Below are positions 25,382 to 63,876 of a stretch of DNA of 64,000 bases, piece by piece. Position 1 is the first letter of the stretch. Each line of letters starts with the position of its first letter. The DNA lies in the NCBI RefSeq assembly GCF_019448235.1, contig NZ_CP080409.1, positions 3,100,001 to 3,164,000 on the forward strand, in the 5' to 3' direction. The DNA comes from Nocardioides panacisoli. Its GTDB lineage: Bacteria > Actinomycetota > Actinomycetes > Propionibacteriales > Nocardioidaceae. The position numbers and the translations under genes are program-made. The notes below the pieces were generated by a model. That model had not been told where the DNA came from. It saw only the letters and a program-made list of their open reading frames with translations, and did not search any database.

Positions 25382-26449
25382 TCAGTGCCAGGAGCGGGCG
25401 AGCTGCAGCAGCCGGTCGTTGGCCTCGGGCTCGCCGATGCTGACGCGACAGCCCTCCCCGGCGAACGGGCGTACGGCGATGCCGATCGTCTCGGCCGCCG
25501 CGGCGAACTCGGCCGTCCGCTCGCCCAGGTCGAACCACACGAAGTTCCCCTGTGGCTCCGGCACGTCCCACCCGGACTCGCGCAGGCCGTCGTGGGTGCG
25601 GGAGCGCTCGGCGACGAGCCCGGCGACCCGCTCCAGCAGGGCGTCCTCGGCGTCGAGCGAGGCCACCGCCGCCGCCTGGGCGACCGCGTTGACGCCGAAC
25701 GGCAGCGACACCGCCCGCAGCGCACCGGCGATCGGGTCGCTCGCGACGGCGTACCCGACGCGGAGGCCGGCCAGGCCGTAGGCCTTGGAGAAGGTGCGCA
25801 GCAGCACCACGTTCGCGTGCATCCGGTACGTCGCCAGTCCGTCCACCGGGTCCTCGGAGCGGACGAACTCGCGGTAGGCCTCGTCGACGACCACCAGGAC
25901 GTGCGACGGCACGGCGGCCAGCAGGTCGTCGAGCTCGCGCTGGGTGACCGCGGGGCCGGTCGGGTTGTTGGGGGTGCACACGACGAGCACCTTGGTGCGG
26001 TCGGTGACGGCCGCGGCCATCGCCGCGAGGTCGTGACGCCCGTCGGCCGTCACCGGGACCTGGACCGACGTGGCCCCGGCGGCCCGGACGGCGATCGGGT
26101 AGGCCTCGAAGGACCGCCAGGCGTAGACGACCTCGTCGCCGGGATCGCAGAAGGCGGCCACGACGTCGTACACCAGGGCGACCGAGCCGGCGCCCGCGGC
26201 GAGGTGCTGGGTGCCGACCCCGAGCCGTGCGGCGAGGGCCTCGTAGAGCGCGGTGTTGCCCATGTCGGGGTAGCGGTTCATCCGCGCGACGGCGGCCGTC
26301 GCGGCATCGAGGACGCCGGGCAGCGGGGGATGCGGGTTCTCGTTGGAGGAGACCTTGTAGGTGGTGATCCCGGGCCGGGCGGCCGGCGGTCGGCCGGGCA
26401 CGTAGGTGGGGATCTGGCTGACGTGGCTGCGTGGCTGAGGGTGGGCCAT
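25382..26449 (-). CDS. Aromatic / histidinol-phosphate aminotransferase (HisC2/Pat type)
   Basis: 355 residues, PLP fold-type I. It carries VSSNENPHPPLPGV near the N-terminus, VVCTPNNPTGP, VVVDEAYREFV and the PLP lysine in LLRTFSKAYGLAGLRVGY, with RVSIGEPEANDRLL containing the carboxylate-binding Arg. As a stand-alone copy outside a his operon it is probably an aromatic amino-acid (phenylalanine) aminotransferase, consistent with the Pat assignment in actinobacteria. The upstream region carries three copies of the 18-bp intergenic repeat. Confidence 0.88.
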   Translation of the reverse strand: MAHPQPRSHVSQIPTYVPGRPPAARPGITTYKVSSNENPHPPLPGVLDAATAAVARMNRYPDMGNTALYEALAARLGVGTQHLAAGAGSVALVYDVVAAFCDPGDEVVYAWRSFEAYPIAVRAAGATSVQVPVTADGRHDLAAMAAAVTDRTKVLVVCTPNNPTGPAVTQRELDDLLAAVPSHVLVVVDEAYREFVRSEDPVDGLATYRMHANVVLLRTFSKAYGLAGLRVGYAVASDPIAGALRAVSLPFGVNAVAQAAAVASLDAEDALLERVAGLVAERSRTHDGLRESGWDVPEPQGNFVWFDLGERTAEFAAAAETIGIAVRPFAGEGCRVSIGEPEANDRLLQLARSWH

Positions 26450-26482
26450 GTCACAACCCTAGGGCGGGTCCGGCGCAAGAGC

Positions 26483-26564
26483 CGAGTTGGCGCCGAGTCG
26501 ACCCGCTCATGGGCCGAGTTGGCGCCGACTCGACCCTCCTGTGAGCCGAGTTGGCGCCGACTCG
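26483..26564. repeat. Array A of the 18-bp near-palindromic intergenic repeat (three units)
   Basis: Units at 26483-26500 (ending GAGTCG), 26515-26532 and 26547-26564 (both CGAGTTGGCGCCGACTCG) start exactly 32 bases apart. Each has a GGCGCC core and CGAG/CTCG ends. The spacers are similar (ACCCGCTCATGGGC, ACCCTCCTGTGAGC). This array lies between two divergent genes; the other three arrays are at convergent junctions. Confidence 0.9.
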
Positions 26565-26604
26565 GCATCCCGTTCGACGATGGTGGCGGTGTCAACCACC
26601 GCCG

Positions 26605-26617: not shown

Positions 26618-27067
26618 ATGACGACGTGGCTCGACGAGGACCAGCAGCGCGCGTGGCGGGCGTGGCTCAACGCCCACGCCCAGCTGTCCGCGCGCCTGGG
26701 TCGCGAGCTGCAGGCCGCCAGCGGCCTCTCGCTGGCCGACTACGAGGTGCTCGTCGCCCTCACCGACGTGCCCGACCACCGGATGCGGATGTTCGAGCTC
26801 ACCGACGCCGTGCAGTGGGAGAAGAGCCGGCTGTCCAAGCAGATCAGCCGCATGACGGCGCGCGGCCTGGTCTCGCGCACCGAGTGCCCCGACGACCGCC
26901 GCGGCGCCCACGTCGCGCTCACGGCCGAGGGCCTCGCCGCGATCCGGTCCGCCGCGCCCGGCCACGCCGACTCGGTGCGCTCCTTGGTCTTCGACGGGCT
27001 CGAGGACGACGAGGTCCGCGCGTTGGAGAAGTTCTTCGGCCGCGTCCTCGACCGCGTCAACGGCTAG
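26618..27067 (+). CDS. MarR-family regulator
   Basis: 149 residues, normal for MarR. The winged-helix region is visible in [40 protein letters not shown] and the wing [20 protein letters not shown]. It binds DNA as a dimer and usually responds to phenolic or oxidative signals; no ligand can be assigned. The target may be the divergent aminotransferase or itself. Its 3' end overlaps the convergent thioesterase by 11 bases. Confidence 0.88.
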
Positions 27068-49664: not shown

Positions 49665-49677
49665 GCCACCCACGTGC

Positions 49678-49746
49678 CGAGTCGGCGCGAACTCGACGAG
49701 TTCGCGCCGACTCGACGCAATTGTGGGCCGAGTTGGCGCCGACTCG
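49678..49746. repeat. Array B of the 18-bp near-palindromic intergenic repeat (three units)
   Basis: Units at 49678-49695 (CGAGTCGGCGCGAACTCG) and 49697-49714 (its exact reverse complement) form a perfect 37-base inverted repeat. A third, CGAGTTGGCGCCGACTCG, is at 49729-49746, exactly 32 bases from the second. The array fills the gap between the convergent asd and membrane-protein genes and could act as a bidirectional terminator. Confidence 0.9.
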
Positions 49747-49756
49747 ACCCGGGTGG

Positions 49757-54085: not shown

Positions 54086-54109
54086 GCGGACCGGACCGAG
54101 CCACCGGGG

Positions 54110-54147
54110 CGAGTCGGCGTGAACTCGGCCGAGTTCACGCCGACTCG
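54110..54147. repeat. Array C of the 18-bp intergenic repeat: perfect 38-bp palindrome
   Basis: CGAGTCGGCGTGAACTCG (54110-54127), GC, then its exact reverse complement CGAGTTCACGCCGACTCG (54130-54147). It lies between the convergent yqeY and PBP genes, 11 bases before the PBP stop. A strong hairpin would form in either transcript. Confidence 0.92.
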
Positions 54148-54158
54148 GCACCCGGGCG

Positions 54159-62970: not shown

Positions 62971-62976
62971 CCTCGC

Positions 62977-63098
62977 CGAGTCGGCGCCAACTCGGCTGTC
63001 CGGGGCGCCGAGTCGGCGCCAACTCGGCACTGAGCGCCGTCGTTGAGCCGAGTTCACGCCGACTCGACCCGTTCGTGGGCCGAGTTCACGCCGACTCG
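62977..63098. repeat. Array D of the 18-bp near-palindromic intergenic repeat (four units)
   Basis: Units at 62977-62994 and 63009-63026 (both CGAGTCGGCGCCAACTCG, 32 bases apart), then 63049-63066 and 63081-63098 (both CGAGTTCACGCCGACTCG, again 32 apart). The array fills the 129-base gap between the convergent MBL and enoyl-CoA hydratase genes. Confidence 0.92.
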
Positions 63099-63099
63099 G

Positions 63100-63876
63100 T
63101 CAGTGGAACGTGGGGGCGCGCTTCTCGACGAAGGCGCTGATGCCCTCCTGGCCGCTGGGGGAGGAGCCGAGGTGGCTGATCGACTCGGCCTCGCGCCGCA
63201 GGGCAGACTCGGCGGCCGGCTCGGTCAGGTCGCGGATGAGGTGCTTGGCGGCGACCTGCGCGTCGCGGGAGCCGGCGAGCAGCGTCGCGACGACCTCCTC
63301 GGCAGTGGCCTCCAGCTCCTCGGCCGGTACGACGCGCGCCAGCAGCCCCGCGGCGTGCGCCTCCTGTGCCGAGAGCAGGTCCCCGAGGATCGCCAGCCGC
63401 AGCGTGCGGTGCATCCCGAGGGTGTTGACCAGCAGCGTGCCGCCACCGTCGGGGCTGAGTCCGACCTTGGCGTAGGCGAGGCTGAACTGCGCCGAGTCGG
63501 CGGCGAGCACGATGTCGGCCGCCGCCGACAACGGGAACCCCACGCCGGCCGCCGTGCCCTGCACGACGCTGACCACGACCGCGTCGCAGCGCTTGAGCTC
63601 GGTGACGATCCGGTGCGCGCCCTCGGCGAGCTCGAGCAGGTGCGACTTCGGGTCGCTCGCCTCGGCGAAGCCGTCCAGCGCACCGCCGACGGAGAAGAAG
63701 CGCCCCTCCGCCGCCAGCACGATCACCCGAGCGGCGTCGGCCTTGGCCTGCAGGATCGCGGCGAGCAGCGCGTCGCCGGACTCCGGCGTCAGCGGGTTGC
63801 CCGCGGACGGGTTGGTCAACGTGATCCGGGCACACCCGTCGGCATGGTGGTAGCGGACGGACTCGTGCTCACTCAT
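63100..63876 (-). CDS. Enoyl-CoA hydratase/isomerase family protein
   Basis: 258 residues from ATG 63876. Crotonase features: ARITLTNPSAGNPLTPESGD, VIVLAAEGRFFSVGGALDGF and VQGTAAGVGFPLSAAADIVL, then SPDGGGTLLVNTLGMHRTLR. The oxyanion-hole segments are present, while the usual catalytic Glu region is replaced by SPDGGG, so the reaction (hydratase or isomerase) is open. AAAGGAA upstream favours ATG 63876; GTG 63894 would overlap the preceding stop (GTGA) and is possible. Confidence 0.85.
   Translation of the reverse strand: MSEHESVRYHHADGCARITLTNPSAGNPLTPESGDALLAAILQAKADAARVIVLAAEGRFFSVGGALDGFAEASDPKSHLLELAEGAHRIVTELKRCDAVVVSVVQGTAAGVGFPLSAAADIVLAADSAQFSLAYAKVGLSPDGGGTLLVNTLGMHRTLRLAILGDLLSAQEAHAAGLLARVVPAEELEATAEEVVATLLAGSRDAQVAAKHLIRDLTEPAAESALRREAESISHLGSSPSGQEGISAFVEKRAPTFH

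Follow-up and report, generated by a model that had tools for sequence, protein, structure and literature searches.

The stretch analysed here, 64,000 bp of the Nocardioides panacisoli chromosome (positions 3100001-3164000 of a single contig of 3,565,529 bp; hereafter the window), carries four arrays of a short repeat, A to D, that belong to a family dispersed over the whole genome. The reading that we favour, with a probability of about 0.72, is that these arrays are phased sites of a cognate protein, predicted to join an AbiEi-type module to a Vsr-type nuclease, which would regulate its own gene, and that they form a family resembling the repetitive extragenic palindromes (REPs), spread or maintained by the nuclease. 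Its components differ in strength: from our analysis, binding of the arrays by the cognate protein is very probable, spread driven by the nuclease is given even odds, and mobilisation of the arrays by it is speculative.

Repeat unit and helical phasing

Genome-wide, the exact unit pattern was found 104 times on the forward and 105 times on the reverse strand, against no match on either strand for the reversed pattern used as control. Taking CC-type units with up to one mismatch and other types as exact matches, 112 units were grouped into 38 arrays, and a few more degenerate units appeared when the array-bearing stretches were scanned. Among adjacent units of the same orientation, 45 of 46 steps measured 32 bp and the remaining one 31 bp, and all 28 junctions between opposite orientations ran plus-then-minus. 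Both the excess over chance and the spacing peak at 32 bp that the original prediction for this window had proposed to look for in the genome were therefore found, and that the arrays are real and non-random is practically certain. Some spacers within an array are identical copies; others differ, yet the length of 32 bp is kept.

The exact unit is almost confined to the source species: across 195 genomes, the source genome held 104 copies, one other (G098) held 7, and each of the remaining 193 had at most one per strand. Likewise, the exact tandem unit matched no stretch of the genome contig collection, which possibly does not include the records of the source genome; the reading of the repeat as an oddity of one species, drawn from this result, was overturned by widening the search to a 12-bp core, GCCGAGTCGGCG. 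As a closely spaced repeat, this core was present in 60 of the 215 genomes searched in the genus, the source genome being one of the 215, with no match to the reversed control among the matches listed. In the GTDB genomes the tandem core pattern occurred in at least 120 stretches; ten of these, from other organisms, were kept apart, and a further one was assigned only to Actinomycetota. The word that follows the core varies from species to species.

In the remaining Nocardioidaceae loci, 203 tandem steps measured 22 (46 cases), 23 (1), 24 (4), 31 (28), 32 (118), 33 (4) and 44 bp (2), and none fell between 25 and 30 bp, although the pattern permitted 20-34; the 12 steps of the ten set-apart stretches were scattered from 21 to 33 bp. 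The unit is accordingly about 22 bp long, and units are stacked directly or one helical turn apart. The 18-bp near-palindrome that had been proposed as the unit thus turned out to be incidental and species-specific, arising because the word mirrors the core in the source species, and the conserved object is an asymmetric 22-bp combination of core and word. Another Nocardioides genome (G080:C25:10620-13637) holds tandem units of similar length, about 22 bp, built on a different core, CGAGTTGCCCCGAACTCACCGT, so the repeat family is wider than the core searched.

The start-to-start distances across the source genome's own plus/minus junctions fell at 18-20, 29-30, 40, 51-52 and 62 bp, with a best period of 10.65 bp (R 0.96, n=28), and the junctions of relatives, drawn from 80 stretches with each distance counted once per species, gave a best period of 10.45 (R 0.72, n=27). 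Relatives also showed seven minus/plus neighbours 33 bp apart, which were discounted as a palindromic variant of the core, GCCGACTCGGCG. When the maximum R over periods of 10-11.2 was taken as the statistic, the 9 distinct own values reached 0.94 and the 27 relative values 0.71, and neither figure was matched in 20,000 uniform draws. Modulo 32, the own junctions formed the classes 8, 19 and 30, and therefore the phase does not merely stem from missing 32-bp units. Such phasing suggests that protein sits on one face of double-stranded DNA. It is a property of Nocardioides; in the genomes of other bacterial families with TGATCATGCA units, the steps ranged from about 21 to 40 bp (40 being the limit of the pattern) among the matches listed.

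A predicted AbiEi-Vsr gene between two arrays

A cross-species comparison of array neighbours identified a single gene that, in four species, stands between two arrays. In the source genome this gene (936130-937080, outside the window) lies between an array of three plus units and one of four minus units. Its product, of 317 aa, is predicted to fuse an AbiEi-type winged-helix DNA-binding or antitoxin module to a nuclease of the Vsr / I-Bth0305I type: the N-terminal half is AbiEi-type by predicted fold and by PADLOC, and the predicted C-terminal fold is of the Vsr / I-Bth0305I type. A profile search of solved structures was weak, with an unrelated cyclase as the best match (E 0.18) and 3r3p at 0.2. 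Homologs, the source genome included, were found in 181 of 215 genomes of the genus (E<=1e-20) and in 87 of 246 genomes of the class (E<=1e-15), where they cover 49 of the 103 genera sampled. The candidate catalytic residues E214 (47/47), D246 (46/47), H264 (44/47) and D273 (47/47) are conserved; their match to the EDxHD motif is our own assignment.

An inverted match between the two flanks scoring above 16, the highest value in 240 random windows nearby, was found at 64 of the 78 homolog loci that were left once two duplicates had been dropped, namely at 51 of 59 in Nocardioides and 13 of 19 outside it. Among 344 other genes of similar length, taken from the window and the array-bearing stretches with the 4 nuclease genes themselves left out, only 4 exceeded this score (Fisher p 1e-56, a value that does not count independent events, since the homolog loci are related). 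The flanks of other genes served as the control because two controls with mispaired flanks (oriented, 56 of 624 above 16; unoriented, 0 of 80 loci above their own 99% point) were both, as we read them, inflated by syntenic coding neighbours. As for the orientation of the arms, 23 of 35 inspected loci were facing, none was reversed and 12 were mixed or gave no clear call; this count was made with two cores, since a single core misreads the direction of GCCGACCCGGCG units (18 facing, 9 reversed, 8 other). By motif match, an RbpA-like C-terminus adjoins the gene in 26 of the 35 loci. At the locus of the source genome the gene is free-standing, with neighbours that Pfam names as RbpA and an SNF-type symporter. 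A search for empty sites returned one weak candidate pair of loci.

Further evidence for a pairing of enzyme and array came from paralogs. A second gene of the source genome (987239-988081; 37% identity) is flanked by a different unit, GTCGAGTCGGCACTTCTCAACG, which is likewise dispersed: when up to 2 mismatches were allowed, a 17-base pattern gave 51 matches, as compared with 7 for its reversed control, and 37 units with up to 6 mismatches in 22 were found in 19 of the 20 stretches examined, where 13 of 15 same-orientation steps were 21-22 bp and the others 43 and 65 bp. A weaker homolog (1209435-1213127; 32% identity) was noted with yet another inverted repeat on its flanks (match score 37) and is possibly a third system. 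Genome G055 has four homologs, and the two examined differ in word, CTTGTGTCCG being dispersed with steps of 30-32 bp and TGAGTTGTAC with steps of 22 bp. Moreover, for 8 of 9 nuclease genes the flank words were closest to the dispersed words of the same genome (narrowly so in G021), G208 being the exception.

The nuclease was present in 57 of 60 genomes with core arrays versus 124 of 155 others (p 0.006). Outside the genus its flanks bear other units, beginning with TGATCATGCA or GATCTTGACC, and TGATCATGCA arrays are dispersed in four genomes. It was found in 6 of 7 genomes with TGATCATGCA-type arrays versus 81 of 239 (p 0.009), a comparison that is partly circular in that the pattern came from the flanks in 4 of the 6; with those four removed, the former proportion was 2 of 3.

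Window arrays, turnover and rival explanations

The window features are as follows:

26481..26566, minus strand: array A, three units at a 32-bp step in the divergent aminotransferase/marR gap
26545..26566, minus strand: complete unit of array A (22 bp), made up of core GCCGAGTCGGCG and word CCAACTCGGC; probable boundary, from comparison within the genus
26513..26534, minus strand: second unit of array A, whose core differs at one position (GTCGAGTCGGCG)
26481..26502, minus strand: third unit of array A, degenerate (18-mer with 1 mismatch, core with 2)
49676..49748, both strands: array B, one plus and two minus units whose starts lie 19 and 32 bp apart, convergent gap
54108..54149, both strands: array C, a plus/minus pair 20 bp apart start to start, single long hairpin, convergent gap
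62975..63100, both strands: array D, a pair of plus units followed by a pair of minus units at steps of 32, 40 and 32 bp, convergent gap
25382..26449, minus strand: class I/II aminotransferase (Pfam name), neighbour of array A
26618..27067, plus strand: MarR-family regulator (Pfam name), neighbour of array A

A recount of the window gave exactly the 12 units and five 32-bp steps reported before, with 18-mer starts at 26483 (one mismatch), 26515 and 26547 in array A and at 49678/49697/49729, 54110/54130 and 62977/63009/63049/63081 in the others. With 3 mismatches allowed, the window held 43 matches compared with a shuffle mean of 30.2, and 5 of 100 shuffles reached 43, which is mildly above chance. 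According to our own rough gene caller, 17 of the 38 genomic arrays lie in convergent, 19 in co-directional and 2 in divergent gaps, and 33 are intergenic; the claim that the units always stand between genes thus holds inside the window and for only these 33 genome-wide, the other five overlapping a called open reading frame (415561, 1468003, 2015580, 2825407 and 2923072). Convergent gaps are weakly over-represented: they hold 17 of the 38 arrays and make up 23 of the 90 gaps of at least 60 bp in these stretches, a total that includes the array gaps (p 0.04). As the other divergent case is among the five overlapping arrays, array A is the only clean divergent one of the 38. Its 18-mers are separated from the start of the aminotransferase by 33 bp and from that of marR by 53 bp, and protein bound to the array could repress or insulate both promoters. 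An Rfam search with the array gave three microRNA models at up to 26.3 bits, against gathering thresholds of 80-105, and these were taken as hairpin noise. Elsewhere in the genome, the innermost plus and minus units were, by eye, often of one centre type, and a rare variant is shared at 1285579/1285609; such sharing suggests conversion or pairing between the arms.

With regard to turnover, no core was present within 320 bp upstream of the orthologous aminotransferase in any of the 29 best-matching other species examined (the best of 179 other genomes with an aminotransferase match), and self-match scores there were at most 13, as opposed to 34 in the source genome. At least 4 of these 29 relatives have core arrays elsewhere. 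Array A therefore represents a lineage-specific gain, or else a loss in the others. In many relatives, as judged by eye, another gene stands upstream of the aminotransferase, and the locus may be rearranged where array A sits. At the gap at 638536, arrays were found in three species, and the words differ in the two species whose arrays were read.

The mechanism that we propose would be as follows. One monomer of the AbiEi-Vsr protein most likely occupies each unit of about 22 bp, that is, the core and the species-specific word; monomers would line up side by side on one helix face, and two such blocks would face each other across a plus/minus junction. Cognate binding is inferred because AbiEi proteins bind 23-bp repeats (PMC7319586), and the protein probably autoregulates its gene, as AbiEi does, because that gene lies between two arrays pointing at each other. 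The flanking units would be the target of the nuclease, and the dispersed arrays would be gained and lost in evolution and spread or maintained through breaks that it makes and their repair, a step suggested by analogy with REPs and their transposases, the RAYTs. Against such spread stands that no insertion footprint was seen. The original prediction had offered a binding protein or a mobile element; a combination of both is favoured here, the former in view of the phasing and the array-flanked predicted DNA-binding nuclease, the latter in view of the absence of array A from all 29 relatives.

A possible, if rather doubtful, account does without mobility: the AbiEi-Vsr protein would bind the arrays as a chromosome organiser, a global regulator or a reservoir for the nuclease (e.g., in defence), and the arrays would arise by ordinary duplication and recombination. 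With its recurrent RbpA-like neighbour the gene behaves as a resident one, the helical phasing implies a selected protein-protein contact, and two homologous gaps with arrays in more than one species but different words (own versus URHA0032; URHA0032 versus Yes46-02) suggest maintenance with concerted change, these loci having been picked for their arrays. However, the absence of array A at the orthologous gene of every relative examined speaks against this account, and the turnover of words and the conserved candidate catalytic residues would be superfluous for mere organisation. That the arrays are slippage-born tandem repeats with no dedicated protein is highly improbable; identical spacers within some arrays do indicate that local duplication happens, but other spacers differ at a constant 32 bp, opposite-strand junctions are phased, and two families in one genome are each tied to their own paralog.

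An RNA-level function, with the arrays as tandem bidirectional terminators or stabilisers of 3' ends and the nuclease link as secondary, is unlikely. Many arrays begin within 30 bp of a stop codon, nearly half lie between convergent genes as counted above, and all five stretches folded were strongly structured (z -5.3 to -7.5). Nevertheless, array A stands upstream of two divergent genes, arrays of single orientation have no long plus/minus hairpin, arrays occur on both sides of the nuclease gene, and the helical phasing of plus/minus distances would be needless for RNA hairpins. Finally, that these are classical REP elements or their clustered form (BIMEs) moved by a RAYT is barely credible, in spite of the shared layout of an enzyme gene between two inverted repeats with dispersed intergenic copies. 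A search for the RAYT domain (Y1_Tnp) gave no match in the source genome and one in the 215 genomes of the genus, the control search being positive in 5 of 14; a RAYT as mover of the arrays was rejected on its absence from the source genome. Carriage by viruses was likewise rejected, as no viral contig matched either the core-tandem pattern or the unit.

Comparison with known systems

The system of AbiEi-Vsr gene and arrays resembles REP/RAYT pairs in several respects. According to PMC2817692, every RAYT gene lies between two inverted REPs, and several enzyme-repeat pairs, with dispersed REPs in clusters, occur in one genus; the enzyme gene between inverted repeats, intergenic dispersal, clusters and several enzyme-repeat pairs are also found here. 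In contrast, the enzyme is an AbiEi module with a Vsr-type nuclease instead of a Y1/HUH transposase, and the sites are double-stranded, phased and of about 22 bp. In addition, the tag GTAG (or CGTC) at the foot of the palindrome, a criterion for REPs in PMC3733652, is, by eye, absent from the unit GCCGAGTCGGCGYGAACTCGGC and from its CC-centre form.

The likeness to the AbiE type IV toxin-antitoxin systems (AbiEi, Rv2827c) lies in the AbiEi-type N-terminal half and in facing repeats of 22-23 bp with gaps that differ by about 10 bp; the inverted repeats beside the gene are candidate operators. Unlike in AbiE, the nuclease is fused and no separate toxin gene neighbours it (at the source genome's locus, no AbiEii (DUF1814) gene adjoins it), and arrays flank the gene on both sides and occupy tens of other loci. 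With the EDxHD homing endonuclease I-Bth0305I and the Vsr mismatch endonuclease it shares the predicted C-terminal fold, in which conserved acidic and histidine residues are candidates for the catalytic motif; it differs from the homing enzymes in its other DNA-binding half, in lacking an intron and in that the repeats on both sides of the gene, its putative target, are intact and not interrupted by it. Like intrinsic terminators, the arrays form strong hairpins, but the U-tract of such terminators is lacking, since by eye no T run adjoins any unit of arrays A to D; a secondary role as terminators is conceivable in view of the strong folding.

Among the matches listed for titles and abstract openings in open-licence PubMed Central (subscription papers lie outside it), none links AbiEi-Vsr proteins with repeat arrays, and within that literature the earlier statement that no named element has this structure stands. 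We consider it an even bet that actinobacteria carry hitherto undescribed genome-resident systems in which an AbiEi-Vsr nuclease co-evolves with a private array, helically phased in the case of Nocardioides, and drives its spread or conversion, with words turning over and orthogonal networks coexisting on one chromosome. Such systems would supply a predicted target for a large actinobacterial family now named 'AbiEi family antitoxin' or 'hypothetical protein'; the pairing of a variable half-site with a conserved one offers a natural experiment on how DNA recognition evolves, and two enzyme-array pairs in one genome make direct tests of specificity possible. Since each known family compared (miniature inverted-repeat transposable elements, MITEs, standing outside the comparison) fails a tested defining feature, we regard this repeat-enzyme system as a new category, with a REP/RAYT-like layout and an unrelated enzyme, which suggests that enzyme-linked intergenic repeats have also arisen outside REP/RAYT with an unrelated nuclease.
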